From a virus: a DNA stretch of 48,356 nt. Each line of letters opens with the position of its first letter. Within the stretch, counting starts at the first letter, position 1. A model generated the notes under the pieces. The model worked only from the letters and a program-made list of their open reading frames with translations. It searched no databases and was not told the DNA's origin. Shown here piece after piece: positions 7,300 to 29,019 of the stretch. The stretch covers positions 1-48,356 of IMG/VR virus record IMGVR_UViG_3300030382_000911, one strand, 5' to 3'. A program made the translations under genes and the position numbers.

Positions 7300-9426
7300 A
7301 TGTTATCATTTGTATCAAACAACATCGCTAAAGCTGTATCTGTGAACACTATCCAAGAGGAAGTGAATGTATTGCTGGACACAGCACGTAATGACATTGC
7401 GTTATTCGAAGCTGTTGAGGAATGGTTAGCAAATGAACTGGGTACATTGCCTGTCATCGAAGAAGGTGAAGTCAGTGTTAAGTATCAGAACTCACGTGGT
7501 TGGGTGATGTACAAACAACAATCTCTGTCACAATCATTATGGGTGATAGCTATGCAACAAATGCAATATCATGGTGCTGTTAACGCAGACCTAGTTGCTG
7601 TTGCATCTGCTAACTGGATTAATGACCATGTGTATCAAGAGTTTGATGACCTTGGGCAAAAGAACCATAAGAAGGTTACTGTGACTAAAGATGAGTTGTT
7701 AACTACTGCTAAAGAAGTAGTGGCTGCAATGCATCATTGTAACCTTATCAACAGTGAGCTTGAAAAGAGTAAAGTTCGCCTGTTAGATGGTAACATTATA
7801 ACTGTCAAGGCATATAAAATGTCTGATGAGTTACGAACTGCATTGAATGAGTTAATTGATTCAATGCGTGAAAGAGTGGCAATGAAATGTCAACCACTGC
7901 AGAACAAACCAATGGACTGGGTGGATGCCAAGACTGGTATCGCTGATGGTGCTAACATGAAGTTAGTGTCTGGTTCAAAGCTTCGTACTAAGAAGGTTGA
8001 TAAGCATGTGTTAGATGCTGTTAACAAATTACAAAGTGTTAAGTTCACTGTAGCGCCTTGCATCTTAGAGGCTGCTAAGGATATGAAGCTAAATGGTCAA
8101 CTGTACAAAGGTGATACATTGAAAGGTATGTTCAAGCTCAAGGAACTTAATGCTGAAGCGTTCGACTTATATCGTGAGATTGAGACGTTGGACGGTAAAG
8201 AGTTCTACTTCCCTGTTACGATGGATACTCGTGGCCGCATGTACTACAGAGGTGGTCTGTTATCACCTCAGGGCGTTGATTTCTGTAAAGCTGCCTTCCA
8301 GTTCGCTGGATTTAAAAAGCTTGGCAGAAACGGTTTCAAGGCGATTTGTATTCATACGGCTAATGTCCTTGGTTTTGATAAAGCCAGCATTAAGAATCGT
8401 ATCAAGTTTGTTCAGAAGAATTGGGCTAAATTGATGGAGATTTCGAGCCATATGGACGTTAGAGAGGCATTTAAGGGTGCTGACGTGTTCCAAGCCCTTG
8501 TTGCTGTTAAAGAGCTACAGCGGCTCGCTCAGATTGATTCTGATTGGGCTGACAAAGAATCCAACTTGGTATGCCATCAAGATGGAACATGTAACGGTTT
8601 ACAACATATGGCTGCTATCACTGGCGACCGGCCTACAGCAATCGCTGTTAACTGTGTCGCATCATCACAAGAAGATGAACCAGCAGACATATATGGCATA
8701 GTTTCTGAGGCAGCTGTGAAGTTTGCAGTTGATGACTCAGTAGCTGAGCTTATTAAGAAGTACGGTCGTGATATGGCTAAGAACCCAGTAATGGTTACAG
8801 GCTATGGAGCGTCTGACAACACAATTATTACCAACACTCAAGAATATCTTGCGCTGAAAGGTGAAGACGTGAGTATGGGTAAGGATGTTGCAGAAGCTTA
8901 CTTAGGTGCTATCCAGAGCGTTGCGGGTGCTGTTACTCAGTTAACAGATGCTATCTCAAATCGTATGACTTATGCAGTTAAAGATGGTAAGCGTCAGTTT
9001 ACTTGGAAAGCTGCTGATGGTTTCATAGCATCAACTTGTTATGAAGAGTTTGAAGATGTAACAATCCGTGTAGGTCAATCATTGTCAGTACGTATGCGTG
9101 GTCAGGGTAAACAACATATCGACCAACGTAAGACAGTACAAGCAATGTCTCCTAACTTCGTACACTCTATTGATTCCTGTCACCTTCGGATGGTAGTGAA
9201 TGCGGCAGAGTACGACTTAGTTGCTGTTCATGATTCAGTAGGTAGCTCACCTTGTGATTACTTCACAACCAGCTCATTGATTCGTGAGAAGTACGCTATG
9301 GTTCATAAGTGCTACGATGCACTGGCTGACCTTTGTGAGTCTATTGATGAATCAAAGCCTGAGTTCCCAGTTGAGAATGACTTCTGTGCTAAAGAAGCTC
9401 TGAAATCAGCTTACATTTTCTCTTAA
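7300..9426 (+). CDS. Single-subunit DNA-directed RNA polymerase 1 (short form)
   Basis: The product has 708 residues, against 883 in T7 RNA polymerase. Conserved parts are present in order: RGRMYYRGGLLSPQG around residue 315, motif A QDGTCNGLQHMAAI with catalytic D428, motif B KNPVMVTGYGAS with K494 and Y502 (eight apart, as K631 and Y639 in T7), a SPNFVHSIDSCHLR segment and motif C VHDSVG with D645. About 110 residues fewer precede motif A than in T7 and several internal spacings are shorter, so promoter recognition is probably different. The start has TTGGAG eleven bases upstream. Position in the early region suggests it takes over from host polymerase. Confidence 0.93.
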   Translation: MLSFVSNNIAKAVSVNTIQEEVNVLLDTARNDIALFEAVEEWLANELGTLPVIEEGEVSVKYQNSRGWVMYKQQSLSQSLWVIAMQQMQYHGAVNADLVAVASANWINDHVYQEFDDLGQKNHKKVTVTKDELLTTAKEVVAAMHHCNLINSELEKSKVRLLDGNIITVKAYKMSDELRTALNELIDSMRERVAMKCQPLQNKPMDWVDAKTGIADGANMKLVSGSKLRTKKVDKHVLDAVNKLQSVKFTVAPCILEAAKDMKLNGQLYKGDTLKGMFKLKELNAEAFDLYREIETLDGKEFYFPVTMDTRGRMYYRGGLLSPQGVDFCKAAFQFAGFKKLGRNGFKAICIHTANVLGFDKASIKNRIKFVQKNWAKLMEISSHMDVREAFKGADVFQALVAVKELQRLAQIDSDWADKESNLVCHQDGTCNGLQHMAAITGDRPTAIAVNCVASSQEDEPADIYGIVSEAAVKFAVDDSVAELIKKYGRDMAKNPVMVTGYGASDNTIITNTQEYLALKGEDVSMGKDVAEAYLGAIQSVAGAVTQLTDAISNRMTYAVKDGKRQFTWKAADGFIASTCYEEFEDVTIRVGQSLSVRMRGQGKQHIDQRKTVQAMSPNFVHSIDSCHLRMVVNAAEYDLVAVHDSVGSSPCDYFTTSSLIREKYAMVHKCYDALADLCESIDESKPEFPVENDFCAKEALKSAYIFS

Positions 9427-9434
9427 TAAACAAA

Positions 9435-9452
9435 GGCGGCGTAACAGCCGCC
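9435..9452 (+). terminator. Hairpin after RNA polymerase 1
   Basis: A perfect GC-only stem GGCGGC/GCCGCC (9435-9440 with 9447-9452) closes a GTAACA loop eight bases after the stop codon. The following bases (AAATTGG) contain no T-run, so it is more likely a 3' stabiliser or weak pause site than an intrinsic terminator. Confidence 0.45.
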
Positions 9453-9467
9453 AAATTGGAGTAAGTT

Positions 9468-9773
9468 ATGAAACTTGTAGATGTACTAAAACGAATTAAA
9501 GAAGACACAGTACTTAGTATTGGTATTTGTGGTAACTACAAACGAATAGCCTATGAACACGAGTTACCAGATAGTTTAGATGAGTTCGACGAGTGTATGG
9601 TAGCAGCGTGTGAAGGTTGGGTGTATTTCTCAGGTAATTGGATGTTTCCAATAGCATATGAGGGGTTACGTGAGGCTGATGCATATGAGTTACGGCATAA
9701 ATGGACTGGTGAGTACGGTCGTCGTCGTATGGAACTACTAGATAGAATGATTGGTATTGCGGAGGATATGTAA
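9468..9773 (+). CDS. Hypothetical protein, early region
   Basis: The product has 101 residues from ATG 9468 behind TTGGAG. It is acidic and mixed helix/strand (DSLDEFDECMVAACEGWVYF in the middle), with no membrane segment or recognisable motif. Its stop overlaps the next start as TAATG, so translation is probably coupled to the SLOG-like gene. Not recognised. Confidence 0.7.
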   Translation: MKLVDVLKRIKEDTVLSIGICGNYKRIAYEHELPDSLDEFDECMVAACEGWVYFSGNWMFPIAYEGLREADAYELRHKWTGEYGRRRMELLDRMIGIAEDM

Positions 9774-10315
9774 TGATTGTTACAGTGATTGGTTCGAGAA
9801 GTACACCAGCTATCGTCCTTACGAAGATGATTGAGATTAACAAGTGGTTAATGAAGTCAGGTGTAGTAGTTCGCTCAGGTGCAGCAGGTGGTGCTGACTC
9901 CACAGTTAACACTGCTTACAATGAAAGTGTTGAAGCTGGTATTCCTGTAAAACATCCAGAGGTTTATATACCTTGGGGTGGGTTTGGCAGTGAGATACGG
10001 GGACACATTCATTACTCAGTACAAGGTTACAACATGAATGCGCGTCAAATAGCACAACAAATGCACCCAGTATGGGAGCGTTGTTCTCATGGTGCAAAAG
10101 CATTACACACTCGTAACGTGTGTCAGATACTAGGTAGCGAATTACAGCACCCATCAGACGTTGTTCTATACTGGTGTCGTGAGAAAGGCGGCGAGCCAAC
10201 TGGTGGAACAGCAACTGCTGTGCGACTAGCAAAACATCATAATGTTAAATGTGTGAACATGATTCATGCAGATTGGAGTAAACAACTACGGGAAGCATTA
10301 GGTATCCCTTTGTAG
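9773..10315 (+). CDS. SLOG/DprA-like Rossmann-fold protein
   Basis: The product has 180 residues. The N-terminus carries GSRSTP (residues 7-12) and SGAAGGADS (35-43), the glycine-rich nucleotide-binding pattern of the SLOG superfamily that includes DprA and LOG proteins. A late GGTATAVRLAKHHN segment fits the C-terminal part of the fold. Known family roles include loading recombinase on ssDNA (DprA), nucleotide hydrolysis (LOG) and ligand sensing in defence systems. In a phage early region a ssDNA-management or anti-defence role is plausible but unproven. It overlaps the upstream gene by one base. Confidence 0.7.
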   Translation: MIVTVIGSRSTPAIVLTKMIEINKWLMKSGVVVRSGAAGGADSTVNTAYNESVEAGIPVKHPEVYIPWGGFGSEIRGHIHYSVQGYNMNARQIAQQMHPVWERCSHGAKALHTRNVCQILGSELQHPSDVVLYWCREKGGEPTGGTATAVRLAKHHNVKCVNMIHADWSKQLREALGIPL

Positions 10316-10329
10316 TTTAGAGAGGGCTT

Positions 10330-10851
10330 ATGGTTGCTACTAGACGTAGTGGTGGCGGACGTAAGCCCACAGTACATCCGAACCCGTTCGTAATATACGA
10401 TGAGTGGGGAGACCCAGAGAATATACTTTGGGGCACAGAAGACGTATTAGACATACGCATTGAAGACATTCTTGTTGGTTGTGTTAGAGCGTTTAACGCA
10501 GGCAGTAAGAGACAGAATTATATTAATTGGTACAAGTTGCTGAGGACATACCGCAATGTATGGGAGTTGTCAGCAACTAACATCAAGGCGTACTTAGGTT
10601 GCTCTGATTCACAGGTACATAGGTACATGCAAGTTATTAAACTAGCTAACCCATTTATTGATAGATACATGGAAGGGCGTAGCGGAAGCAGTGTAAGAGG
10701 CTATGTAGACCTCACCTTCGGGCAAGTACGGGCAGGATATAATGTACTAGGAAAGCCGAAGGAGGGAGTAGTCGAAACAAACAAAACTGGAGACAAATCA
10801 TGCAATTCAATCCAAAAATCGTTACAGCAGTTGCTGGCCAAAGCAAAGTAG
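10330..10851 (+). CDS. Hypothetical protein with possible helix-turn-helix
   Basis: The product has 173 residues behind AGAGGG. The N-terminus is basic (MVATRRSGGGRKPT). The segment TNIKAYLGCSDSQVHRYMQ resembles a helix-turn-helix with a turn near Gly-Cys-Ser, so DNA binding is possible. No family is recognised. Its 3' end overlaps a 66-codon gene that has its own ribosome binding site. A regulator of early or middle expression would fit the position. Confidence 0.65.
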   Translation: MVATRRSGGGRKPTVHPNPFVIYDEWGDPENILWGTEDVLDIRIEDILVGCVRAFNAGSKRQNYINWYKLLRTYRNVWELSATNIKAYLGCSDSQVHRYMQVIKLANPFIDRYMEGRSGSSVRGYVDLTFGQVRAGYNVLGKPKEGVVETNKTGDKSCNSIQKSLQQLLAKAK

Positions 10852-11000
10852 ATAAGAATGGCCATGCGGTGACCAAGAACGTATGTAACGGTCGCGTTGG
10901 TGGTCATCATGGTGCAACCAAAGATGATAACTGGCGTGAGCGCCATAACAAGAAACAATTAGTCACACGACGTGTTGCAGTTAGCGACCCGTACTCGTAA
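10800..11000 (+). CDS. Small basic protein overlapping the previous gene
   Basis: The product has 66 residues from ATG 10800 with TGGAG about ten bases upstream; it overlaps the preceding gene by 52 bases in another frame. It is basic and rich in Lys, Arg, Asn and His (NGRVGGHHGATKDDNWRERH). The ribosome binding site and continuation 149 bases beyond the previous stop favour a real gene. Function unknown. Confidence 0.55.
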   Translation: MQFNPKIVTAVAGQSKVDKNGHAVTKNVCNGRVGGHHGATKDDNWRERHNKKQLVTRRVAVSDPYS

Positions 11001-11232
11001 GTAAGTAAAGAGTAGTTTTCGTTGTGAGAGGCTATTTATTATAAAATAAATGCTAACGACAGCGTACAAATGAAGGCAGTAGCATAATAGCTAAACACCT
11101 TCCAAGGAGTGAGTCTTCCTTGTCATAAGAAAAGACCGTAGACCGCCGAGCTACGTATTAAGAAAGTAGGCACATTTAATGAGTGCATTAATGATAGTGT
11201 ACTGATTAAATAATTAACTAAGGAGAAACACC
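11001..11232 (+). promoter_or_regulatory. 232-base intergenic stretch with hairpins
   Basis: No gene is visible. An A/T inverted stretch (ATTTATTATAAAATAAAT, around 11035-11052) could help open DNA or serve as a promoter -10 region. CGTAG/CTACG (11137-11141 with 11151-11155) forms a hairpin with a nine-base loop. The stretch ends with AAGGAG (11220-11225), the ribosome binding site of the next gene. I see no certain promoter. Confidence 0.4.
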
Positions 11233-11412
11233 ATGAAAAATAGCAGTTCAAGTAAGTTCAAAATGATTGGCCAACAAAAGGCTTGGAAACGTGAGATGCG
11301 TAAACAGAATGAACAAGACCGAATCATGACACCACAGAAAAGTGATGCTATGTTACGTGGCTACGAGTTCATCCAAGCGTTTATGTCTCATGGTGTACAA
11401 GTAGTGCGGTGA
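11233..11412 (+). CDS. Small basic hypothetical protein
   Basis: The product has 59 residues from ATG 11233, behind AAGGAG (11220-11225) at ideal spacing. It is strongly basic in its first 40 residues (KMIGQQKAWKREMRKQNEQD) and probably helical, ending in SHGVQVVR. The excellent ribosome binding site and the tight link to the next gene (stop at 11412, next start at 11417) support it as real. Nucleic acid binding is possible; no family recognised. Confidence 0.65.
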   Translation: MKNSSSSKFKMIGQQKAWKREMRKQNEQDRIMTPQKSDAMLRGYEFIQAFMSHGVQVVR

Positions 11413-11416
11413 GTTT

Positions 11417-11644
11417 ATGAACTTATTAAAAAGAGGTTGGCGTAAGTTACGTGCTAACGTACAACCAATTGTTTCAAAGTATGTAGAATGTGATCGTATA
11501 TCATTAGGAGTGTCTGACTTCAGTGTATGTGTGCATGTATGGAACAATAACGACATCACTGACTTTATATACATATCACGACCACTAGAAGAAATAACAT
11601 TGAAGATGGTGGTTAAAGAAATTCATAAGTACTTCAACAACTAA
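11417..11644 (+). CDS. Hypothetical protein, early/middle region
   Basis: The product has 75 residues from ATG 11417, with GGTGAG of the preceding gene's end acting as ribosome binding site. The N-terminus is basic (LLKRGWRKLRANVQP), the middle is beta-rich (ISLGVSDFSVCVHVWNNND), and the C-terminus helical. No motif is recognised. It is followed by a string of palindromes. Confidence 0.6.
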   Translation: MNLLKRGWRKLRANVQPIVSKYVECDRISLGVSDFSVCVHVWNNNDITDFIYISRPLEEITLKMVVKEIHKYFNN

Positions 11645-11657
11645 GTGCTTAGAATGA

Positions 11658-11683
11658 GAGGATAGTATCCTCATACGTATGAG
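11658..11683 (+). other. Overlapping perfect palindromes
   Basis: GAGGATA-g-TATCCTC (11658-11672) is followed, sharing three bases, by CTCATACGTATGAG (11670-11683), a 14-base perfect palindrome. A further GAGC/GCTC pairing can form with bases after 11680. The arrangement could switch between alternative RNA hairpins or act as tandem binding sites for a dimeric protein, just upstream of the gene at 11739. Confidence 0.6.
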
Positions 11684-11738
11684 CATATATCTTTGGGACG
11701 CTCACCCAACTTAAACTTAAAAGAAAGGAAACAACAAT

Positions 11739-12167
11739 ATGTCTAAATTTGATTTTTCAGCACTGGAAGCAGCAGCAGTATCTAACAACTTCTCTGGCGC
11801 TTCACGTACTCCAACCTATGCCTTGCCTGTAGAAGAAGCTCGTGCATGTGTTAAAGTTCGTGACGGTAACAAGAAGCCAGCCGAAGACGGTACTCAAGCA
11901 CTGACCCTAGCACTGGGTAAGTACACTCTGCCTCTAGATGTTGTCAAGCAAGGCGCGACACGTATCAATGCATCAGCCGAACAAGTTGAAGGTTTCACTG
12001 AAACTCTACTTGCTGCTGTTGAAGCTGGTCAGTTCGATAATGAAATCATTGCTGCTCAGAAGCGTGGCGAAGAAGCAGCTAACAAACCTGCTGCTCCAAA
12101 GGCTGAGACTCCTGTAGAAGAAGAAGCCCAAGAAGCACCAGAAGGTGTAGACTTGGATTCTCTGTAA
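11739..12167 (+). CDS. Ala/Glu-rich protein with acidic C-terminal tail, possible ssDNA-binding role
   Basis: The product has 142 residues behind AAAGGAAACAACA. The N-terminus is MSKFDFSALEAAAV, the middle a compact domain (about 30-105), and the last 35 residues Ala/Pro/Glu-rich ending DLDSL. Acidic tails of this kind occur in phage ssDNA-binding proteins such as T7 gp2.5, where they contact partner proteins. The FDFSALEAAA start resembles the N-termini encoded at 22643 and 23580. The ssDNA-binding idea is inference only. Confidence 0.65.
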   Translation: MSKFDFSALEAAAVSNNFSGASRTPTYALPVEEARACVKVRDGNKKPAEDGTQALTLALGKYTLPLDVVKQGATRINASAEQVEGFTETLLAAVEAGQFDNEIIAAQKRGEEAANKPAAPKAETPVEEEAQEAPEGVDLDSL

Positions 12168-12178
12168 TCTATAGTTGG

Positions 12179-12271: not shown

Positions 12272-12442
12272 ATGTTTGGAAAGGAACAACCTGAAATCAC
12301 TGATGAGCGCGACGTAGGCGACTATATCACCATGTTGCAACAACAAGGTAAACGCGAACTTCAGATGTTTTTATCAGGAGAAGAAGATGAAGTGGGTGGA
12401 GATAGCATCGAACCTACCAGTGGGCGGGAAGACTCAGACTGA
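12272..12442 (+). CDS. Small acidic protein overlapping the primase start
   Basis: The product has 56 residues from ATG 12272 with a modest AGGGTG upstream. It is acidic (EITDERDVGDYITM, then LSGEEDEVGGD) and overlaps the primase gene by 56 bases in a different frame; the primase ribosome binding site (CAGGAGAAGAAG) lies inside it. The overlap suggests translational coupling to primase. The weak ribosome binding site leaves some doubt. Confidence 0.45.
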   Translation: MFGKEQPEITDERDVGDYITMLQQQGKRELQMFLSGEEDEVGGDSIEPTSGREDSD

Positions 12443-13172
12443 GTGTCCTGAGAACTGTGGTAGTGGTGAGAAGTTATCTGTAACACACGACGTTAAAGAA
12501 TATTGGTGTAACTGCTTTAGATGTGGTTACACCGATAATTACGACAAAGGTACTCTATCGTTAGCTCAACTCAAAGAGATAAAAGAGTTGAATGAGCGAG
12601 CTAAGAATGCCAATTTGAAAGTCGAATTACCGAAGGATGTAACAGATGACATACCACGAGAAGGAAGACTCTGGTTATACAGAGCTAGCATTAGTCCGAG
12701 TACGATTAAGAAGTATCGTATCCAATATTCAGAAGAGCATAGACGCGTTATATTACCTGTGTTCGATAGTTCAGGTAAGCTCATCTGGTATCAAGCCAGA
12801 GCAGTTCATCCAGAACAAGAACCTAAGTATATACAACCAAGCGCAGATAGAAGTGAAATTATGTTTGCCGCCAGAAGTAGAAAGACATCTTCACGAGCTA
12901 TTATCGTTGAAGACATTCTATCAGCAATACGAGTCGGAGCTAGCGCAGATGCCTTCTCATTGCTCGGTACAAAAATTACGACCGCACAAGCTTCTAGACT
13001 TATGAAGTACGACCGAGTAACAACTTGGTTAGACTCAGACAGAGCGGGTAGAAATGGTGCCTATAAAATAGGTAAAGAACTAGGGTTAGTGACTGAGGTT
13101 GACAACATAGTAACAGACCAAGACCCTAAGATGTTAACTAATAAACAGATTAAGGAAATATTATGTCAATAG
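12387..13172 (+). CDS. DNA primase (zinc-binding and TOPRIM domains)
   Basis: The product has 261 residues. The N-terminal zinc-binding domain shows CPENC and CNCFRC (about residues 20-47); the TOPRIM core shows IIVEDILSAIRV (about 170-181) and TWLDSDRAG (about 214-222), the Glu and Asp-x-Asp that bind metal in primase catalysis. It corresponds to the primase half of T7 gp4; the helicase half is a separate gene 500 bases downstream. It makes short RNA primers for the lagging strand. The start lies behind a good AGGAG, inside the previous small gene. Confidence 0.88.
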   Translation: MKWVEIASNLPVGGKTQTECPENCGSGEKLSVTHDVKEYWCNCFRCGYTDNYDKGTLSLAQLKEIKELNERAKNANLKVELPKDVTDDIPREGRLWLYRASISPSTIKKYRIQYSEEHRRVILPVFDSSGKLIWYQARAVHPEQEPKYIQPSADRSEIMFAARSRKTSSRAIIVEDILSAIRVGASADAFSLLGTKITTAQASRLMKYDRVTTWLDSDRAGRNGAYKIGKELGLVTEVDNIVTDQDPKMLTNKQIKEILCQ

Positions 13173-13528: not shown

Positions 13529-13695
13529 AGAAATACCTAGTATTTAACGCTGCATTAGATATCCTAGATTTCTGCGAAACGCAAGCAGAAGCAGACGAAC
13601 GCGCAAAGACACTAGCAGCGCGGCACAACATTACAATATATGTGAGTACGATAACAAACAGGTGGCAAGTAGGTACGTACCGAACACCAATGTAG
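13525..13695 (+). CDS. Small hypothetical protein between primase and helicase
   Basis: The product has 56 residues. ATG 13525 is chosen over the in-frame ATG at 13510 because AGGTGGGACGG lies directly upstream and it overlaps the previous stop as ATGA. The sequence (KKYLVFNAALDILDFCETQ, then a helical Ala/Glu/Arg stretch) looks like a small beta-alpha fold. Not recognised. The last bases carry the ribosome binding site of the helicase gene. Confidence 0.6.
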   Translation: MKKYLVFNAALDILDFCETQAEADERAKTLAARHNITIYVSTITNRWQVGTYRTPM

Positions 13696-13709
13696 GAGGT
13701 CTTATCATT
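13694..13709 (+). promoter_or_regulatory. Strong ribosome binding site paired with an AUU codon
   Basis: AGGAGGT occupies 13694-13700. The only in-frame codons at usable distance for the helicase are ATC (13704) and ATT (13707); there is no ATG, GTG or TTG in that frame nearby. The first in-frame ATG lies far inside the conserved protein. AUU starts are rare but known (E. coli infC). Confidence 0.55.
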
Positions 13710-14951
13710 GATTTAGCATTACTACGTATTATTAAATACAAAGAACAATTCGACAAAGTACAACGTTATATACCTAACGCTGCTATTAGTAAAAAGACTA
13801 AGGCGATAGTATCTGACATACGTAAGTACTTTAAAGACAATCCCGAAGAGACAGTACTAGACTTTCCTTCATTCCGTAGTATGTTCTTTACAGTATGGCA
13901 TAAGAACATGAACGACGAGTCTTGTGACTACTACAATAAACTGATTACTCGAATGGAAGAAGATGTTCCTGAAAGTGTGAAGAAGAACATTATTAACCAG
14001 CTACTTGAGTTAGAGTTTGCTACTAACGTTGGTAATATAATCAGTGAATACGAAGCAGGCGAAGAAATTGAAGTAGTACTGGAAGTATCAAAACTAGCGA
14101 ATGCTGTGAAGGACGCACTAGTAAAGACTACAGGCGTAGAGTATGCAGGATTCGATGATGCTACAGTAGGTGACACTGACGACGATACAGGTTACGAGTG
14201 GCCAATAGCCATTATGAACGAGACCTACCGACGAGTACAAGGTGGTGACCAGTATATTGTTGCAGCGCGTCCGGGAAAAGGTAAAACAAGTTTCTTGACT
14301 CATCTAAACTGGAGTCTCGTACAGCAGATGCCAAAGAACAAATACATAGTATGGTTCAACAATGAATCAAGACGACAGCGTATTATGTCTAGGCAAATAC
14401 AGTCAGCACTGAACAAAACGAACGGTGAACTGAAAGCACTCAAAGATAAAGGAGAGCTACGTGATGCATACATTAATGAAATGGGGTCTACTGATAGAGT
14501 GCGTGTTTATGATATTCACGGACAAAATAACATCTACCTCGAAGATATACTTGAAAATATTGGGTTGGATAATGTTGGTGCCATTGTCATTGATATGCTG
14601 GACAACGTTAAATTCCCTACGCGCCGTGATATTCGTGAAGACCAAAAGCTGGAGCAACTTTACCAGTGGTCGAGAGAATTAGGTGTAAAGTACAACTGTC
14701 CTGTCTTCCCAACATCGCAGATTAGTAATGAAGGTGCTGGTATGCAGTACCCAACTGAGAACATGTTGAAGGACTCTAAGACAGGTAAACAAGGTGCATG
14801 TGATGGTATCATAATGATAGGAGCTAGTGATGACCCACTACTTCAGAACAAACGATTCATATCAATGCCAAAGGATAAGAACAAACGTGAAGGTCTGCCA
14901 AAGATGCAAGCCGAAGTAACGTTTGATGCAGACAGAGGAAGATACATATGA
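13707..14951 (+). CDS. Replicative DNA helicase (T7 gp4 helicase/DnaB-like)
   Basis: The product has 414 residues if translation begins at ATT 13707; an in-frame GTG at 13662 would add 15 residues but lacks a ribosome binding site and overlaps the previous gene. The RecA-like core shows Walker A ARPGKGKTSF, Walker B AIVIDMLDN, a PTSQIS segment and an arginine-finger region near VTFDADRGRY at the C-terminus. Residues 1-150 form a helical N-terminal region. It unwinds DNA ahead of the polymerase as a ring. T7 encodes this fused to primase; here it is separate. The 3' end overlaps the next gene as ATGA. Confidence 0.88.
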   Translation: MDLALLRIIKYKEQFDKVQRYIPNAAISKKTKAIVSDIRKYFKDNPEETVLDFPSFRSMFFTVWHKNMNDESCDYYNKLITRMEEDVPESVKKNIINQLLELEFATNVGNIISEYEAGEEIEVVLEVSKLANAVKDALVKTTGVEYAGFDDATVGDTDDDTGYEWPIAIMNETYRRVQGGDQYIVAARPGKGKTSFLTHLNWSLVQQMPKNKYIVWFNNESRRQRIMSRQIQSALNKTNGELKALKDKGELRDAYINEMGSTDRVRVYDIHGQNNIYLEDILENIGLDNVGAIVIDMLDNVKFPTRRDIREDQKLEQLYQWSRELGVKYNCPVFPTSQISNEGAGMQYPTENMLKDSKTGKQGACDGIIMIGASDDPLLQNKRFISMPKDKNKREGLPKMQAEVTFDADRGRYI

Positions 14952-19677: not shown

Positions 19678-19759
19678 TTACTTGGTTGTGTTTGCAAATC
19701 AAAGCGAGTGACTGATAACACTATAACATGCGCAAGACAGTGAGTCTGTTACCTACAGA

Positions 19760-19770
19760 AAGGAGGTGAT
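19760..19770 (+). promoter_or_regulatory. Extended Shine-Dalgarno-like site without a gene
   Basis: AAGGAGGTGAT is a perfect 11-base complement of the conserved 3' end of bacterial 16S rRNA (ATCACCTCCTT). No ATG, GTG or TTG occurs at usable distance downstream. The GTG inside it would open only a 24-codon frame. AGGT/ACCT (19764-19767 with 19771-19774) can fold part of it away. Confidence 0.55.
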
Positions 19771-19818
19771 ACCTATCTTCCAGACGCTCCACTGGGTTAA
19801 TAAATGGAGCACTAACTA

Positions 19819-19881
19819 TCCCCGTAATTCGGTAGAGTGAAGGCGTACGATTCATTGAAGGTTCAAGTCCTTCTACGGGGA
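19819..19881 (+). tRNA. tRNA-like element lacking a D arm (degenerate or novel)
   Basis: An eight-base perfect acceptor-like stem TCCCCGTA/TACGGGGA (19819-19826 with 19874-19881) encloses a nine-base linker (19827-19835), a six-base stem with one G-T (19836-19841 with 19851-19856) and a nine-base loop, and a canonical T arm GAAGG-TTCAAGT-CCTTC (19857-19873). The linker and next bases contain GGTAGAG, a D-loop-like word, but the D stem is missing. The CCA end is not encoded. No standard seven-base anticodon loop forms; ACG lies in the nine-base loop. A decayed tRNA, a tRNA mimic or a chance fold are possible. It is not a confident functional tRNA. Confidence 0.4.
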
Positions 19882-19885
19882 GCTA

Positions 19886-20078
19886 CTTATTTACCACTAA
19901 CTTAGCATAATGTAACCGTATTATGAATACGACACCGACGGGTGTGAGTACGGTGGCGATAACTTGTAGTCTAAAAACTTCTCTAGGGTATACACTATTG
20001 GAGGTACTGTAGGTGAAGGCTTAATGCACCAAACGTTAAGGGTGGGGATACTCGTGTGAGTAGTTAGTGGTAAATAAG
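19886..20078. repeat. 17-base perfect inverted repeat, 159-base spacer
   Basis: CTTATTTACCACTAACT (19886-19902) is the exact reverse complement of 20062-20078. In RNA the arms would form a 17-bp helix closing the inner hairpins. The right arm includes the first three bases of AAGGAG (20076-20081), the ribosome binding site of the gene starting at 20088. No target duplication is visible at the outer ends, which argues against a simple mobile element. Confidence 0.85.
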
Positions 20079-20087: not shown

Positions 20088-20294
20088 ATGAAAACATTTG
20101 AAACAACAGCAGGGGAACTCACAGTAGACTTTGAAACGTTCGATGGTGCTCCCTTATTCACAGTAATACATAACGGAGATGTTGTAGTAGAAGAGTCGGA
20201 GAGCTGTGTGCGTTTGAGTAATCACCAAGCTTATCAACTAGCGTTACACGTACTAACGAACATCGAAGTACAAGACAGTAGAGGAGGAAACTAA
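20088..20294 (+). CDS. Small acidic hypothetical protein before DNA polymerase
   Basis: The product has 68 residues from ATG 20088 behind AAGGAGAAG, which is preferred over the in-frame GTG at 20067. It is acidic and beta-rich (ELTVDFETFDGAPLFTVIHN) with one Cys. Its ribosome binding site begins inside the right arm of the 17-base inverted repeat, so its translation may be controlled by that structure. Its stop overlaps the DNA polymerase start (TAATG at 20294), so polymerase translation may be coupled to it. Not recognised. Confidence 0.7.
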   Translation: MKTFETTAGELTVDFETFDGAPLFTVIHNGDVVVEESESCVRLSNHQAYQLALHVLTNIEVQDSRGGN

Positions 20295-22609
20295 TGAGAG
20301 TACTTACCTTTGATTTAGAAGTACAGAACCATACGCTACATAAGCGGAAGGCTTCTCCTTTCGACAAAAGAAACTACATAGTAGAAGCAGGGTGGAAAGT
20401 TAACAACGGGCCAGTACAGAGTAAACGTTGGGACGCGTGGCACCGTGAGTCTGTTATGGATGAACAATTCAACTCACTTGAGAAAGGTGATGTGATTGTC
20501 GGATTTAATATAAAGTTTGATTTGTTATGGGTATGGCACCAAGAGTCACTACAGAACGCACTAAAGCGCGGTGTACGCATCTTCTGCTGCCAGTACGCAG
20601 AGTACCTACTAGGTGGTCAGACTAAAGAAGTACAAATGACTTCAATGAATAACGTCGCTGAAATGTACGGTGGCGGTTGTAAGATTGATGCTGTAAAAGA
20701 ACTGTGGGAAGAGGGATACTTAACATCGGAAATCCCACCAGACTTACTACACGATTACCTCTGCGGCGATGGTGATGAGATTGTAGGTGACGTAGAGAAT
20801 ACGTACCGTATCTTCCGTGGGCAAGTTAAGCGTATGAAGGAAGAGCATCCTAAAGAATTTAGAACAATGATAAACTTCCGTATGGACGGTTTATTAGCAA
20901 CAACTGAAATGGAATACAATGGTGTTTACTGTAACGGTGAAGTCGGAGAAGAACTACGTAAAGGTCTAGTATCAGAGATTGAACGCACTACAGCAGAACT
21001 TGAATCATTTATTCCTGAACTACCACCAGAGTTAGTATTTAACTGGGGTAGCAACGTACACAAATCATGTTTAATATTTGGTGGCGTGGTGAAGTACCAA
21101 AAATGGGTAGCACACACTGATGAGAACGGTAACTTAATCTACGCTAAGAAGACTATTCAACAGCCACTGTTCAACAACGAACCAGTGCCTAAAGAAGAGT
21201 GTATCTTAGCAGGTCAGTTATACGTGAGAGAAGTACCGGAGGGCCAAGGTTTTGAGCACAAAGGAAAGTTCTATCAGACGCAAGACCGATATAAAAGTGG
21301 AAAGAAAGCTGGATTGGGTAAGTTTAAGAACGTTACAGTCCCTGACGAAACTAAGCCTAAAGGTGCGAAGAAAGACCACTACTTCAAGTTCGATGGGTTT
21401 GTTAAGCCTCATCACTCTTGGAAGTCAGAGACAACAGACGCTTACGATAACCCATTATACAGCACAGGAGCTGAGGTTATTAAGAAGCTTGCACAACGTG
21501 GACTCAAGTTCACTGACGCGCTCGCTAAAAGAACGACTCTTGATAAAGATTTGGGAACATATTACTGGAAGGAAGATAAGAAGGGTAAACGTAAAGGAAT
21601 GTTGTGCCTCATTGATGACGATGGAATCATTCACCACGGACTCAAGCATTCGAGTACTGTTACCAGTCGCATGTCTTCGTCCGACCCCAACCTACAGAAT
21701 ATACCGAGAGGTGATAAGAGCAACGTTAAAAAGATGTTCCAATCACGATTTGGGGATGGAGGAAGAGTTGGAGAGATTGATTACAGTCAGTTGGAGGTTG
21801 TAGTACAAGGCGTATTAAGTGGTGATGAGAACCTGCGCCGAGACTTAAACAATCGTATTGACTTTCACTGTAAACGACTGGCTGCGAAGTTAGGTGAGGA
21901 CTACGACGAGGTTAAACACAAGGCTAAAGTGCTAGAAGTACCTGAATACACAGTGGCGAGAACTAACGCTAAGATATTCTCATTCCAACGTGCGTATGGT
22001 GCTGGCGCTGAGACAATCGCACAGTCAACTGGTATGCCACGTAGTGAAGTTGATGCCCTAATTGCAGCCGAAGAGAAGTTGTATCCAGGAGTAGTAGAGT
22101 TCGATAAGCAACTTGAAACTACTATTAACAGTAATCGTATACCAACAAGTAATAAAATATTTATCGAAGGTGTAGCATTCTCTCAAGGTGAAGCACACTG
22201 GGATAGTCCTACTGGAACACGTTATATATGGCGTGAAGGTGAGACTCCTGAGTTCATGCATAAGCATGGTAAGTACACTGGATTCAGTCCTACAGAGCGT
22301 AAGAACTACCCCGTACAAGGTTTCGGTGGTGAGATTGTGCAGACTATGTTAGGACGGGTATTCCGTTATATGCTAGAGAACGACCGCTTTGGTGGTGAAG
22401 TACTTCTAGTAAATACAGTACACGACTGTGTATGGTTAGACGGTAAGAATGATAAAGTAGAGAAGGTATGTAAAGAAGTACAAGGTATCTTAGAAGATGT
22501 TCCTAATACTTTCAATACAGCATACCCTGACACTTTAAACATTGACGTACCATTCCCGTGTGAAACAGAAGTAGGCAGCGACTTCTTCGATATGACAGTT
22601 ATTCATTAA
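20294..22609 (+). CDS. Family A DNA polymerase with 3'-5' exonuclease domain
   Basis: The product has 771 residues, near T7 gp5 (704). The exonuclease domain shows DLE (D7, E9) at the start, a VGFNIKFDLLW segment and YLCGDGDEIVGDVENTYRIF. The polymerase domain shows TSRMSSSDPNLQNIPRG, motif A EIDYSQLEV (D496), motif B ARTNAKIFSFQRAYGAG, and motif C VNTVHDCVW (H710, D711). The residue after the catalytic Asp is Cys where T7 and E. coli Pol I have Glu. It copies the genome, probably with a host processivity factor as T7 does. Its translation is coupled to the preceding small gene. Confidence 0.93.
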   Translation: MRVLTFDLEVQNHTLHKRKASPFDKRNYIVEAGWKVNNGPVQSKRWDAWHRESVMDEQFNSLEKGDVIVGFNIKFDLLWVWHQESLQNALKRGVRIFCCQYAEYLLGGQTKEVQMTSMNNVAEMYGGGCKIDAVKELWEEGYLTSEIPPDLLHDYLCGDGDEIVGDVENTYRIFRGQVKRMKEEHPKEFRTMINFRMDGLLATTEMEYNGVYCNGEVGEELRKGLVSEIERTTAELESFIPELPPELVFNWGSNVHKSCLIFGGVVKYQKWVAHTDENGNLIYAKKTIQQPLFNNEPVPKEECILAGQLYVREVPEGQGFEHKGKFYQTQDRYKSGKKAGLGKFKNVTVPDETKPKGAKKDHYFKFDGFVKPHHSWKSETTDAYDNPLYSTGAEVIKKLAQRGLKFTDALAKRTTLDKDLGTYYWKEDKKGKRKGMLCLIDDDGIIHHGLKHSSTVTSRMSSSDPNLQNIPRGDKSNVKKMFQSRFGDGGRVGEIDYSQLEVVVQGVLSGDENLRRDLNNRIDFHCKRLAAKLGEDYDEVKHKAKVLEVPEYTVARTNAKIFSFQRAYGAGAETIAQSTGMPRSEVDALIAAEEKLYPGVVEFDKQLETTINSNRIPTSNKIFIEGVAFSQGEAHWDSPTGTRYIWREGETPEFMHKHGKYTGFSPTERKNYPVQGFGGEIVQTMLGRVFRYMLENDRFGGEVLLVNTVHDCVWLDGKNDKVEKVCKEVQGILEDVPNTFNTAYPDTLNIDVPFPCETEVGSDFFDMTVIH

Positions 22610-23542: not shown

Positions 23543-23579
23543 TACTCAGTTAGTTTAAATGCCATAAGAGGATTCTAGA

Positions 23580-24581
23580 ATGGATTTAAGTAAGATTGGT
23601 AAAACTGCTGCTGAAAATGACAGTGTGCAGAGAAAGATAGTAAAAGGACGTGTACTACAGTATGACGCAGACTTCGCTTGCTACGAAGTGTCAGACTTAG
23701 AAGAACCTGTTACAAAGAGTTTCCAGCGTTTGCTTGACCACATTGAAATGAAACGGGCTATGGTAGGTGCAGAGCGTGTGAATGCTTTCATCACTTTAGG
23801 TGAGAAGTCAGGTCGTGAAGATATGGCCACTGTTAAAGAGTACCAAGAGAACCGTGACCCAGACAAACCTATTAAAGTAAGAGTACGAGAGTTGCGTCAT
23901 ATGCTGGCTAACTTCGAAGCTACTCCGACCATCACACCAGTTATAGGATTGAATTATGAAGCAGATGATCTTATGTGTATGTACCAATCGGCTAACCTCG
24001 ATAATTCCATCCTCATGTCAGGTGACAAAGATTTGTGGATGGTACAAGGACAACATGCTGATGTACGAACAGGGCGAACTTGGCTTGTGGAAGGTTATGA
24101 AAGTACAAGGTACAAAGAAGTAGGTAATGTAAAACCTAAACTTGTAGGAACTGGTTACTCTTGGTTCTGGCACCAGATGATTATGGGTGATACAGCAGAT
24201 AACATTCCCGGACTGCCCAAGATTCATAACAGTCTGTTAGATGTGTATACACCATTGAAGTCTGGTAAACCACGTAAAGATGGTTTAGCTCAGTGTGGTG
24301 AAGCAAAAGCTGTAGCAATGTTATTAAATGCTAGAGATTGTAAAACAGCAGCTAAACGAGTGTATGACGCATACTGGCGTACATACGGTGGTGAGGCTAT
24401 GGAACGATTCATCGAACAAGCATACCTACTATGGATGCAACGTGATGATAACCCATGGGACGTATTGTATTATATGCGTGACAATGCTGGTTTGAAGTTA
24501 TCGCCAAGTCTAAGACAGATTGCTGTCATCGGTGAGTTCAAAGAACGTAAACTTACAAGACAACGATTAAAGGAAAGTTAA
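23580..24581 (+). CDS. 5'-3' exonuclease (FEN-like, T7 gp6 role)
   Basis: The product has 333 residues, close to T7 gp6 (300). The FEN-fold acidic motifs are present: YEADDLMCM (about 123-131), SGDKDLWMV (about 142-150) and MGDTADNIPGLP (about 200-212), followed by CGEAKAVAML of the helix-hairpin-helix region. It removes RNA primers and degrades host or concatemer ends. It begins MDLSKIGKTAAEND, similar to the ssDNA-binding protein's N-terminus. The ribosome binding site is AAGAGGA; the stop overlaps the next gene as TAATG. Confidence 0.88.
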   Translation: MDLSKIGKTAAENDSVQRKIVKGRVLQYDADFACYEVSDLEEPVTKSFQRLLDHIEMKRAMVGAERVNAFITLGEKSGREDMATVKEYQENRDPDKPIKVRVRELRHMLANFEATPTITPVIGLNYEADDLMCMYQSANLDNSILMSGDKDLWMVQGQHADVRTGRTWLVEGYESTRYKEVGNVKPKLVGTGYSWFWHQMIMGDTADNIPGLPKIHNSLLDVYTPLKSGKPRKDGLAQCGEAKAVAMLLNARDCKTAAKRVYDAYWRTYGGEAMERFIEQAYLLWMQRDDNPWDVLYYMRDNAGLKLSPSLRQIAVIGEFKERKLTRQRLKES

Positions 24582-24769
24582 TGCGAGTAATTATCCCAGT
24601 TAATGAACTACAGGAAGGCGAAGAGTCAGTAACGTTAATGAGCGTTGACTTCGGTGAAGTATCTGAACGAGTAGCCAAACGTAAGTTCCGAGTAGTGTTG
24701 AAGGAGTGGGGAATCCCTGTACGACAACATAAACGTATTATCAAAGAGTACTTCCCAAACAAGAAGTGA
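24581..24769 (+). CDS. Small hypothetical protein after exonuclease
   Basis: The product has 62 residues, starting at a TAATG overlap with the exonuclease. The first half is acidic (PVNELQEGEESVTLMSVDFG), the second strongly basic (RKFRVVLKEWGIPVRQHKRI). It probably depends on translational coupling. Not recognised; a protein-nucleic acid adaptor is possible. Confidence 0.6.
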   Translation: MRVIIPVNELQEGEESVTLMSVDFGEVSERVAKRKFRVVLKEWGIPVRQHKRIIKEYFPNKK

Positions 24770-24776
24770 GTGATGT

Positions 24777-24887
24777 ATGGAACCCAATAAAGAAGAAGCC
24801 AATGTGTGTACTATCATTGCTGTATTAATTGGTGCGTTCTTCGCCTGTAGTGCGATAGCAGAGATAGCAGGATGGTGTGTAATATGA
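24777..24887 (+). CDS. 36-residue single-pass membrane protein
   Basis: The product runs from ATG 24777 to TGA 24887 and consists of a short charged N-terminus (MEPNKEEAN) and one hydrophobic helix (about residues 10-33) with three Cys. AAGAAGTGAG lies upstream. Its stop overlaps the next gene's ATG as ATGA, the linkage used throughout this genome, which supports it despite its size. It may alter the host membrane or accompany lysis; unknown. Confidence 0.5.
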   Translation: MEPNKEEANVCTIIAVLIGAFFACSAIAEIAGWCVI

Positions 24888-25306
24888 GAACAGTAAGATT
24901 AGTAACAGTAGATGTAAGAGAAGTAACTTGTGCGCATGGTGCAGAATTCTTCAATATAGCGAGTGCAGATGACGAGTGGCAACGAGTAGGTGTTGCCGGC
25001 GAACCGGAAGTTATACAGACAGCTATCCCTTGTCGTATAACACACTTCCGAAGAAGACATGGTAATGAAACATTAGATACCTACCTAGCTATAGACCCAC
25101 GTGTTAAGGAAGAACTAGCACTATTCCGTGGCCCAGACTTAGTAGAGGGTATTAAGGAGCGGTGGGATGCAGAAGTACGCACACTGAAAGAATACCTACG
25201 TACAAATAGAAACGTAAGAGATAATCTACGCACTCAGTTAAAAGACCTACATGAAGCTAGTGTCGGGCAACGTATTAAGTGGGTGTTTACAGGAGTTCCG
25301 CGATGA
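24884..25306 (+). CDS. Hypothetical protein before ligase
   Basis: The product has 140 residues from ATG 24884, chosen over the in-frame start at 24872 because of the ATGA overlap with the 36-codon membrane gene. The first 70 residues look beta-rich (RLVTVDVREVTCAHGAEFF); the rest is a charged helical stretch (GIKERWDAEVRTLKEYLRTN) likely to form a coiled coil. Its stop overlaps the ligase start as ATGA. Not recognised. Confidence 0.65.
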   Translation: MRTVRLVTVDVREVTCAHGAEFFNIASADDEWQRVGVAGEPEVIQTAIPCRITHFRRRHGNETLDTYLAIDPRVKEELALFRGPDLVEGIKERWDAEVRTLKEYLRTNRNVRDNLRTQLKDLHEASVGQRIKWVFTGVPR

Positions 25307-26178
25307 GCTTAAACATTAAACCTCAGAAAGCAAAACATCTGCACTTAGAAGCAGAGAAGAAGAAACCAGCATTTGTAGGAAAGAAGTATGCAATATTTGA
25401 AAAGTATGATGGTTGGTATGGGTATCTGGATTTTCCTAGTTGTGTCATACACTCACGTGCCTTACGCGAAATACCCGCTCTTCGTGAACTATCCGATGCG
25501 ATTAGAACGAACAGTCCGACGACTCGTGGCAGGTTAATCTTCGAGATTATGATTGATGGTTTAGAGAAGAACTCATTCAGTGAATTGAATGGTATCCTAA
25601 ACCGTAAGTACGAACAGGCAGATGGTGCCTATATAATCGTGCATGATTACATCCCCGAGTGGAAGTTTGACGTACCATTCAAGACAAGGTTCGCCTTTGC
25701 ACAAGAGATTGTAAATCGTATTGATATGCAGGAAGTAGTGATTGCTCCTGTCATTGCAGTTAGCACCGAAGTAGAGCACTGGAAAGAAGCTGCATTCGAT
25801 GTATGGACTGATGGTGGTGAAGGTGTAGTACTTAAAGACATTAATGCGCCGTACTACCCAGACAAACGTAATGGCTCACTCCTTAAAATAAAGGAAGAAG
25901 TCACCGTAGAAATGAAGGTACTAGAAGTTATCCGTGGGCAAGGTGAACATAGTCACATGGCAGGTAAGCTGCTCTGTATTGATGAAGTTAACCAGAAGCA
26001 CGAGATTGGTCTAGGTATGATGAAACATGAACAACGTGAGTCAATCATGAAAGACCCATTCTCTATTGTAAATAGTGTAGTAGAGATTAAGGCTATGAAG
26101 AAGTTGAAGGACGGTTCATACCGCGAACCTCGGTTCCTAGCTATCCGCTACGACAAAGAAGTGCATGAACTTGGCTAA
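25303..26178 (+). CDS. ATP-dependent DNA ligase
   Basis: The product has 291 residues from ATG 25303 behind AGGAG (25290-25294); an in-frame ATG at 25279 is less likely. The adenylation motif I EKYDGW gives nucleophile K34; motif III RGRLIFEIMIDG, motif IV GGEGVVLKD and motif V LLKIKEE follow in order, then an OB-fold-like C-terminus ending in YRE-PRFLAIRYDKE. Shorter than T7 ligase (359). It seals nicks in Okazaki fragments using ATP. The start overlaps the upstream stop as ATGA. Confidence 0.92.
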   Translation: MSLNIKPQKAKHLHLEAEKKKPAFVGKKYAIFEKYDGWYGYLDFPSCVIHSRALREIPALRELSDAIRTNSPTTRGRLIFEIMIDGLEKNSFSELNGILNRKYEQADGAYIIVHDYIPEWKFDVPFKTRFAFAQEIVNRIDMQEVVIAPVIAVSTEVEHWKEAAFDVWTDGGEGVVLKDINAPYYPDKRNGSLLKIKEEVTVEMKVLEVIRGQGEHSHMAGKLLCIDEVNQKHEIGLGMMKHEQRESIMKDPFSIVNSVVEIKAMKKLKDGSYREPRFLAIRYDKEVHELG

Positions 26179-26233
26179 ATCAATGTTCCAAAAGGTGTGT
26201 GAGGCAGTTAAGCAGAATATTGAGGAATGAACA

Positions 26234-26617
26234 GTGGCGAGAAGACTAAAAGTATCTGAGTTGGCATCAGTACGAAAGCAGTTGGTAACAAAGCAAAAGA
26301 ACCGTTGTACAATATGTAGTAAACCATTCACAGCAAAGGACGACGCAGTTGTTGACCATTGCCATGACACAGGGTTTATTCGAGGAGCAGTGCATAGGTC
26401 TTGCAACCAAGCAGAAGGAAGAGTGAAAACTAAAGCTAGATTAGGACACCGTGGGGTTGGTGCGTATGAATACATTATCGGTTTAGGTAAATACCTAGAG
26501 TCTCATAGTAAACCACACTTACAGCTACTCCACCCAACACACAGAACCGAGGACGAGAAGCGTATCGAACGGAACAAGAAAGCGCGTAAGTTAAGGGCAG
26601 CAAAGAGAGCAAAGTAA
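26234..26617 (+). CDS. Recombination endonuclease VII-like nuclease
   Basis: The product has 127 residues from GTG 26234 with GAGGAA (26222-26227) upstream. The His-Me finger core shows CTIC (C25, C28), VDHCHDTG (D41, H42, H44) and VHRSCNQAEG (H54, C57). In T4 endonuclease VII the second zinc pair is Cys-x-x-Cys; here it reads His-x-x-Cys. It would resolve branched DNA before packaging, the role T7 gives to the unrelated endonuclease I (gp3). The stop overlaps the next start as TAATG. Confidence 0.87.
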   Translation: MARRLKVSELASVRKQLVTKQKNRCTICSKPFTAKDDAVVDHCHDTGFIRGAVHRSCNQAEGRVKTKARLGHRGVGAYEYIIGLGKYLESHSKPHLQLLHPTHRTEDEKRIERNKKARKLRAAKRAK

Positions 26618-29019
26618 TGTTAGACCAGCAAATAGCATGGGAAAAAGAATGTCTCAAACGAGGCTCAGAACGTTACTACGCTAACCAAGATAGGTTACGG
26701 GAACAAGGTGCAGGCGATACAACGGATGTTATGTCGCACCTTATCCAAGAACGTTTACAAGATACAGCAGATTACTTAAAAGATTTAGTAGAGGACAACT
26801 CAGTTGGACGTAATGCTAAATACAATCGAGTAATCAGAGTTGCTGCACAGGGAGACTACTTAGTACTAGCTTATCTAGGATTGAAGTCAGTACTCAAAGG
26901 TATACAAATCCCTGAGAAGAACTCGCTAATGAAAGTTACACTGGACATTGGCTCACGCATTGAAGCAGATATTAAATGCAAGATGTTTGAAGCTACTAAG
27001 CCAGAGTATTTTGATGTAGTACGTAAGTCATTCGCTCAGCAGAATGTTACTGACTACGTACATAAACACAAAGTCATGATGAAGAAGTTCAGTGACTTCG
27101 AGCTAGAGTGGGATGATTGGACTTCCTTAGAGAAGGTTCAGATTGGCTCACGAGTAATACGAGCAATACTAAATACGTTTGGTGACGTTGTGTTTATGCA
27201 CAAGGAGTACCGACGTAACAAGACAATATACATTCTTGAAACTACAGCGCAGTTTGATGATTGGGCTGCTGAGTTCGAGAAGGAGCGTGGTTTATTGTAC
27301 CCAATGTACCTACCACTTAAAGTTCCACCTCGTGCGTGGGAAGATAATGTAACAGGAGGTTACTATCACCCTAGTCTACGTATGCGATTCATTAAGACCA
27401 AAGGTCGTGACCATCGTCAGTTCGTAGAGGAAAGTATGCCTAAGCAACATATGGACGCTGTTAATAAGATGCAACGTACAGCTTGGCAGATAAACGAGGA
27501 TGTATTAAAAGTACAAGAAGAGATATACCAGAAAGGTCTAGGTATTGGTATGCCGAGTAATCGGATTATCGAACGTCCTCCATTCCCTGAACATCTACGG
27601 GAGATTGAGAAGGAAGACTTAACTGATGAACAGAAGCTTGAAGTCCGTGATTGGAAGATGCAAGCTAAGTCCTCGTATGGTCGGGAACGACAACGTAAAG
27701 GGCAAGTCCTAGCATTCATGCAGTCACACAAGTTAGCCAAAGAACTTAGACAATGGAACAAGTTCTATTTTGCTTACTCCTGTGATTTCCGTGGTCGGAT
27801 ATACTGCGCCACAGCCGGCCTGTCGCCTCAAGGTGCTGACACGGCTAAGGGTCTGCTTAGATTCCAAAAGCCCGTCAGACTGGGACACAGCGGCCTTAAA
27901 TGGCTTGCTATCCAAGGGGCGAATACCTTTGGTGAAGATAAGCTAACCTATCAAGACCGAGTGCAGTGGATTAAGTCACAAGAACCAAATATACGACAAG
28001 TTGTAGAAGACCCAATCAATTCACGTGAGTGGTGGGGAAGTGCAGACAAACCGTATCAGTTCTTAGCATTCTGTTATGAGTGGGCAAGGTCTAACTATGG
28101 TAAGAACCCAGAAGCAATGGGACATTTACCAGTAGGGCTTGATGGTTCGTGTAACGGACTACAACATTTCTCAGCTATGTTACGTGATGAAGTAGGTGCT
28201 AAGGCAACTAACTTAATTGACGTGCCAAAGCCAGAAGATATCTATCAGGAAGTAGCTGACCTAACAACTAAGAAGTTGAAGAAGTTAGTTAATGAGCCTG
28301 AGAACGAGTACGCAGCAGTATGGTTGCGTGTGGGTATAAACCGTAAGTGTGCAAAACGACCAGTAATGACTTTGCCTTACGGTGCTACAAGAACGTCTGC
28401 TCGTGAGTATATCTTCGAGTATGTACGAGAGAATTGGCGTAAGTTCAATCTGCCTGACAAAGAACAGTTCTTAGTAGCTAACTACCTGACACCTATTTTA
28501 TGGGAAGCTATCGGGGAAGTAGTGATAGCAGCTAGAGCAGCAATGGACTGGTTGCAGAAGAACGTAGGTGAAGGTTATTGTAAGTGGCACAGTCCACTAG
28601 GTTTCCCTATATTCCAATACTACAAACATGCGAAAGGTCAGGACGTTAAGACACAGATTGACGGACGTATACTTCTTAAAGTACGAGACTTAGATAGCCG
28701 TGGTGAACCTAAGAAGTCAGAGCAACGGAATGGTGTAGCTCCAAACTTTGTCCATAGTATTGATAGTTCACATATGGTACTCACTATTAATGGTACTAAG
28801 CTAGAAGACTTGGCAATGATTCATGATGACTACGGCACTCATGCTGGTAATACAGAAGAGTTATTCAAAGTCATTAGAAAGTCATTCCTGTATATGTACT
28901 CGAACTATACTCCATTACATGACTGGGGTGAGCAGGTAGGTGCAGACATGGACACCATACAGAAAGAAGGTACATACAACATTAAGTCTATACTAGATGC
29001 TGATTACTTCTTTGGTTAA
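26617..29019 (+). CDS. Single-subunit DNA-directed RNA polymerase 2 (long form)
   Basis: The product has 800 residues. Conserved parts in order: CDFRGRIYCATAGLSPQG (about 389-406), motif A DGSCNGLQHFSAM with D509, motif B AKRPVMTLPYGATRTS with K580 and Y588, NGVAPNFVHSIDSSHMV, and motif C MIHDDYGTH with D737. The end, LDADYFFG, parallels the T7 C-terminal foot. It is closer to T7 RNA polymerase in size and motifs than the first polymerase, and the two differ greatly in sequence, so this is not a recent duplicate. It lies immediately before the virion genes, suggesting late transcription. Confidence 0.93.
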   Translation: MLDQQIAWEKECLKRGSERYYANQDRLREQGAGDTTDVMSHLIQERLQDTADYLKDLVEDNSVGRNAKYNRVIRVAAQGDYLVLAYLGLKSVLKGIQIPEKNSLMKVTLDIGSRIEADIKCKMFEATKPEYFDVVRKSFAQQNVTDYVHKHKVMMKKFSDFELEWDDWTSLEKVQIGSRVIRAILNTFGDVVFMHKEYRRNKTIYILETTAQFDDWAAEFEKERGLLYPMYLPLKVPPRAWEDNVTGGYYHPSLRMRFIKTKGRDHRQFVEESMPKQHMDAVNKMQRTAWQINEDVLKVQEEIYQKGLGIGMPSNRIIERPPFPEHLREIEKEDLTDEQKLEVRDWKMQAKSSYGRERQRKGQVLAFMQSHKLAKELRQWNKFYFAYSCDFRGRIYCATAGLSPQGADTAKGLLRFQKPVRLGHSGLKWLAIQGANTFGEDKLTYQDRVQWIKSQEPNIRQVVEDPINSREWWGSADKPYQFLAFCYEWARSNYGKNPEAMGHLPVGLDGSCNGLQHFSAMLRDEVGAKATNLIDVPKPEDIYQEVADLTTKKLKKLVNEPENEYAAVWLRVGINRKCAKRPVMTLPYGATRTSAREYIFEYVRENWRKFNLPDKEQFLVANYLTPILWEAIGEVVIAARAAMDWLQKNVGEGYCKWHSPLGFPIFQYYKHAKGQDVKTQIDGRILLKVRDLDSRGEPKKSEQRNGVAPNFVHSIDSSHMVLTINGTKLEDLAMIHDDYGTHAGNTEELFKVIRKSFLYMYSNYTPLHDWGEQVGADMDTIQKEGTYNIKSILDADYFFG

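Follow-up and report, generated by a model that had tools for sequence, protein, structure and literature searches.

The DNA analysed here (the window; all 48,356 nt of the IMG/VR virus record IMGVR_UViG_3300030382_000911), from a small podophage of marine type, encodes two single-subunit RNA polymerases and raises the question of how two such enzymes could share the transcription of one phage genome. A sequence-only reading had proposed that host polymerase and the two phage enzymes act in turn, each phage enzyme on promoters of its own. Both enzymes proved to be complete and divergent, as that reading held: the open reading frames at 7300–9426 (RNAP1, 708 aa, early region) and 26617–29019 (RNAP2, 800 aa), both on the plus strand, start with ATG, run uninterrupted and match the T7-family polymerase domain PF00940 (E=9.9e-54 and E=8e-97, respectively), with only 21% identity to each other. 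A search of the whole record for RNA_pol-family proteins matched these two and no third. In an alignment with T7 RNAP both keep D421/R423/G424/R425, D537, Y571, R627, K631, Y639, N781, H784, H811 and D812 (T7 numbering), and motifs A, B and C are in place, so that the motif list of the earlier reading (including the RGR segment, K and Y eight apart, NFVHSID and the His-Asp of motif C) was right. The positions through which T7 RNAP contacts its promoter (746/748/756/758) differ between RNAP1 and RNAP2, in a loop that aligns poorly.

RNAP2 has an RPOL_N match (E=8.5e-11) and a phmmer match to T7 RNAP of E=2.5e-84. RNAP1 has an unusual, shortened N-terminus and is about 21% identical to the T7 and SP6 polymerases; a Pfam search found no RPOL_N (PF14700) match in it, yet its AlphaFold model (pLDDT 85, pTM 0.81) follows T7 RNAP along the chain. 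The best PDB match to this model is the T7 RNAP elongation complex (TM 0.71 by query length), and the best match among viral models is RNAP1 of phage phiV141. G+C content and third-position G+C are alike in both genes (0.42/0.376 for RNAP1, 0.429/0.39 for RNAP2). The catalytic residues are kept in 13/13 aligned RNAP1 and 14/14 aligned RNAP2 copies, and between the relatives R8W and H4/4 RNAP1 is under purifying selection (dN 0.093, dS 0.74, dN/dS about 0.13), evolving faster than RNAP2 (dN/dS about 0.04). Neither enzyme is a decayed copy, in agreement with the earlier reading. A small hairpin in the RNAP1 leader (AGCG-GAAA-CGCT, 7263–7274, plus strand) has the same sequence in the window as in R8W and H4/4.

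The two genes occupy different types of place, one early and one directly before the virion genes, as the earlier reading had it. RNAP1 lies upstream of the DNA primase gene (12387–13172; phrog_47, E=4.9e-43), the first replication gene downstream of it, and of the DnaB-like helicase gene (13662–14951; phrog_19, E=3e-57), as the polymerase genes of T7 and SP6 do. The DNA polymerase gene (20294–22609; phrog_17, E=2.1e-123) and a block of exonuclease, ligase and endonuclease VII genes (23580–26617) follow; RNAP2 comes directly after this block, and the virion genes start behind it (short tail fibre, portal, scaffold and major capsid, 29044–33323, assigned by profile matches in agreement with the R8W gene order), all on the plus strand. 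The same location, flanked by DNA metabolism and virion genes, is seen in KP34, phiKMV, RHEph27 and Cyclitvirus 1.204.O; according to the KP34 paper it is typical of phiKMV-like phages, all other clusters carrying the gene upstream of DNA metabolism (PMC6834552). With RNAP1 in the T7/SP6-type place and RNAP2 in the phiKMV-type place, both layouts are thus present in one genome. The label 'T7-like' does not suit the backbone, which is better described as a phiKMV-like layout plus an extra early polymerase than as a T7-like genome with one extra. An intrinsic-terminator-like hairpin after the capsid gene (33398–33427, plus strand) corresponds in position to Tphi of T7 and the terminator of KP34. 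Close behind RNAP1 we also observed a DprA-like recombination mediator (9773–10315; phrog_768, E=2.7e-55).

The ends of the record are identical over 89 bp (1–89 and 48268–48356), and this overlap points to a circular assembly, probably a near-complete genome cut inside the tail-fibre region; an ORF of that region appears to cross the join, from about 48023 into 83–1726. By analogy with H4/4 (L002), whose corresponding stretch contains a 217-bp terminal repeat, the physical genome ends probably lie in a long non-coding stretch (5815–6378, strand unassigned) that separates the terminase end of the late region from the first early gene. The largest ORF of the window, 39242–45145, is a single uninterrupted frame of 1967 aa; its counterpart is annotated as an endolysin plus a −1 frameshift fusion in H4/4 and as two separate genes in R8W.

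The pair is conserved and old, and it is already annotated in relatives, namely the Alteromonas phages H4/4 and R8W (Foturvirus) and the Vibrio phages JSF7, phiV141 and K385 (Tawavirus). Contrary to the earlier reading, which named no described case, the genome announcement of H4/4 lists 'two DNA-dependent RNA polymerases' (PMC5658483); the text of the R8W paper makes no mention of RNA polymerase (PMC8228385). Using tblastn and record tables, we found the same pair in about 20 near-identical Vibrio K phages; in PhPV1.2 RNAP2 is intact and RNAP1 is in pieces in the record. Both polymerases are present in each near-complete record of the clade, as they are in the IMG/VR records spanning both places (G001, G003, G005, G006, G007, G010, G012). 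Clade records with one polymerase are 18–39 kb long, and those that could be positioned (G004, G008, G009) stop short of the place of the other enzyme. The next-nearest RNAP2 homologues (34–37% identity) come from 13 records of 39.6–47.5 kb with a single polymerase each; in many of these a second match is listed that comes from the C-terminal tail of the one polymerase ORF.

H4/4 and R8W resemble the window most closely. Both polymerases are in the same two places (65% and 70–72% aa identity), and gene order, RNAP1 leader hairpin, the element before the early genes described below and the terminator after the capsid gene are shared. At the DNA level, in contrast, megablast aligns only 8% of the 22-kb late half, the part compared, with H4/4 (77% identity), which falls short of the high genome-wide nucleotide similarity expected within Foturvirus; given this low similarity the window probably represents a separate genus-level relative. 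The Vibrio phages (JSF7, phiV141, the K385 group and PhPV1.2; Tawavirus and relatives) have two polymerases in the same layout, but their RNAP1 is only about 33% and their RNAP2 about 45% identical to those of the window.

In a tree of 41 polymerases, including 13 RNAP1 and 14 RNAP2 copies, each enzyme forms one clade (100/100 in both cases) and the same Vibrio/non-Vibrio split is found within both; the pair is therefore old and has been inherited vertically. The RNAP2 clade groups with RHEph27, Alfirin and Cyclitvirus (87/82), its closest relatives with a single RNAP. The RNAP1 clade, a deep and compact polymerase branch (about 700 aa), has a long stem; together with the 21% identity this rules out RNAP1 as a recent duplicate of RNAP2. 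As N4 and KP34 sit on long branches with unsure places in the tree, we name no donor for RNAP1. G010:C1 (loci L110–L112) carries a far more divergent RNAP1-like gene (branch 2.32) in the usual place, 28083–30092 of the reverse complement; its RNAP2 is ordinary, and RNAP1 may have been replaced there.

The proposal that each enzyme has its own promoters found no support in the sequence. We compared all 20-mers of each genome with one another, and the top family corresponded to the known promoters in T7 (17 copies), SP6 (13) and KP34 (4, the published TAATGTTACAGGAGTA). The same scan yielded promoter-like families in two single-RNAP relatives, GCTTCYGGACCCTTTTAGGA in RHEph27 and TGCCACTCCTTAGARNAAC in Cyclitvirus 1.204.O, in each case immediately downstream of the RNAP gene, ahead of the capsid gene and ahead of the tail fibre. 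In the window and eight other dual-polymerase genomes, the top 20-mer families look like coding repeats, and no repeated promoter was found in the window or in most of the dual-polymerase genomes. Likewise, pairs of non-coding 24-mers agreeing at at least 19/24 positions number 88 in T7, 38 in SP6 and 6 each in RHEph27 and 1.204.O, but 0 in the window, R8W, H4/4 and G001; G003 has 4. KP34 gives 3 such pairs, none of them its promoter, so few-copy short promoters would escape this test. Two gaps that are promoter sites in the single-RNAP relatives, the one downstream of RNAP2 and the one ahead of the capsid gene, are mostly only about 10–40 bp long here and have no promoter-like motif in common; in several dozen relatives, the sequences at these two places share only ribosome-binding sites. 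An EM motif search on upstream regions returned mostly codon bias, scoring no better than reverse-complement controls, and was rejected. Neither k-mer enrichment nor gap-only 18-mer clustering revealed a T7-style repeat or a convincing promoter family, respectively; matches in sigma-70 scans did not exceed the shuffled expectation, and Rfam at gathering thresholds gave no RNA family. The window thus lacks the many near-identical phage promoters of a T7-type transcription programme; T7, SP6, KP34, RHEph27 and 1.204.O served as positive controls.

Only one promoter-like element was found in the window, at 6035–6075 (plus strand) in the non-coding DNA that precedes the early genes. It consists of TTATAAATCA-N3-ACTT followed, within about 10–25 bp, by a core resembling T7/SP6 promoters (CACTTATATAGGGA at 6062), and has a putative promoter function. 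The element is conserved in some relatives; R8W, H4/4 and G001 each have a single copy in this stretch (the H4/4 copy lies 223 bp away from the record end and the terminal repeat), and the Tawavirus genomes gave no match. The core of the R8W and H4/4 copies is CTATAATAAGGG and contains a perfect sigma-70 −10 hexamer; judged by this sequence, it may be a host early promoter there. G003 carries the element twice, before the early genes and just before a primase-sized gene (266 aa), with identical 24-bp cores (24/24); no IMG/VR contig besides these has the exact G001/G003 core. Xp10 offers a precedent for two copies: its promoters were recognised as a pair of perfect repeats ahead of the structural genes (PMC4331800).

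Other non-coding features were noted on the way. In the non-coding DNA of JSF7 (L003) the motif GTACAGTTAATGCAGC occurs twice (at 30641 and 38594 of the reverse complement), once ahead of the early genes and once ahead of a middle gene, which are the two types of place where G003 has its element. Ahead of the DNA polymerase gene, a long non-coding block (19678–20066) has a conserved counterpart in R8W (74.6% over 387 nt). Within it, at about 19820–19880, lies a tRNA-like fold with acceptor and T arms (TTCAAGT loop) and without a proper D arm; ARAGORN makes no call, and the R8W counterpart scores weakly as tRNA-Sec (17.5 bits). A second conserved block (GTAGCATAATAGC, GTGAGTC) lies at 11001–11232 in the window and at 7365–7560 in L002, so that the H4/4 copy has another location, ahead of the helicase gene; it is possibly a structured RNA.

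The explanation that we favour, with modest confidence, is that the phage belongs to an old Autographivirales lineage of the phiKMV type, comprising Foturvirus, Tawavirus and uncultured relatives, which has a second, early polymerase, and that both enzymes are active and take part in a relay. The window has the marks of that order: single-subunit RNA polymerase of its own, genes on one strand, T7-type head-tail genes and an R8W-like gene order. Both enzymes would, to judge from their residues, be active, template-dependent polymerases. Host RNA polymerase would transcribe the early genes, RNAP1 among them; RNAP1 would then transcribe the middle genes for replication and nucleotide metabolism, with RNAP2 at their end, and RNAP2 would drive the virion and packaging genes. 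Such a relay is plausible and is the best reading of the gene order. Two results speak against this explanation: a scan that recovers the promoters of T7, SP6, KP34, RHEph27 and Cyclitvirus detects no repeated one for either enzyme in the window, and the short spacers downstream of RNAP2 and ahead of the capsid gene contain only ribosome-binding sites. As no repeated promoter is visible, transcription probably starts at few or weak-consensus sites, the late genes being reached mostly by read-through. A three-step cascade (host enzyme, early RNAP1, late RNAP2) of two mutually orthogonal one-piece polymerases with few, unusual start sites is a version of the relay to which we give somewhat less than an even chance; in the literature searched we found no such plan described for any phage of the T7/phiKMV order. 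T7 and SP6, which like the window encode a single-subunit polymerase early and upstream of the replication genes, differ in having one polymerase and 13–17 conserved promoters; KP34, phiKMV, RHEph27 and 1.204.O also have one polymerase only, and repeated promoters are recognisable in KP34, RHEph27 and 1.204.O.

Both polymerases, or RNAP1 alone, might instead start at one shared site before the early genes and read through the whole genome, with RNAP1 as an early booster and RNAP2 as its later replacement and no strict split between middle and late genes. The sole promoter-like element, single also in R8W, H4/4 and G001, would agree with this, as would a late region almost without spacer DNA; the second copy in G003, directly ahead of the primase gene, points to a middle-operon start, and the conserved terminator after the capsid gene to a dedicated late transcription unit, so that we regard this as unlikely. 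T7 RNAP partly serves genome internalisation and priming at phiOL/phiOR. RNAP1 could similarly act mainly in DNA entry or replication priming at the genome-end region rather than in middle gene expression, since the conserved element is found in non-coding DNA next to the genome ends, the location of phiOR and phiOL in T7; as the second G003 copy is away from the genome ends, we consider this quite improbable. Two phage polymerases in one podophage also recall N4 (Schitoviridae), whose several enzymes act in turn, and one of the enzymes might thus be carried in the virion and transcribe the early genes. N4, in contrast, has a virion polymerase and a two-subunit enzyme, not two one-piece T7-type enzymes; RNAP1 is encoded among the early genes as a 708-aa T7-type chain instead of a virion protein of ~3,500 aa, the largest ORF of the window has 1967 aa, and the RNA_pol matches fall only in two single chains, with no counterpart of the two-subunit RNAPII, so that an N4-like logic is very improbable. 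That RNAP1 is decayed or inactive, as its shorter chain, missing RPOL_N match and long stem branch might hint, is hardly credible in view of its intact frame, the catalytic residues in 13/13 copies, purifying selection and a confident polymerase fold in the model.

In the literature searched, mostly outside subscription journals, we found neither a functional study of two or second single-subunit polymerases in this order nor transcription data for any of these phages. The pair is a long-standing, stable departure from the rule that a T7-like phage has one RNA polymerase, and it is conserved in phages of Alteromonas and Vibrio. The division of labour is directly testable, as the lineage has cultured members (H4/4, R8W and JSF7), and the missing repeated promoters turn into the concrete question of how these enzymes choose their start sites. 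The RNAP1 branch could, moreover, supply an orthogonal enzyme.
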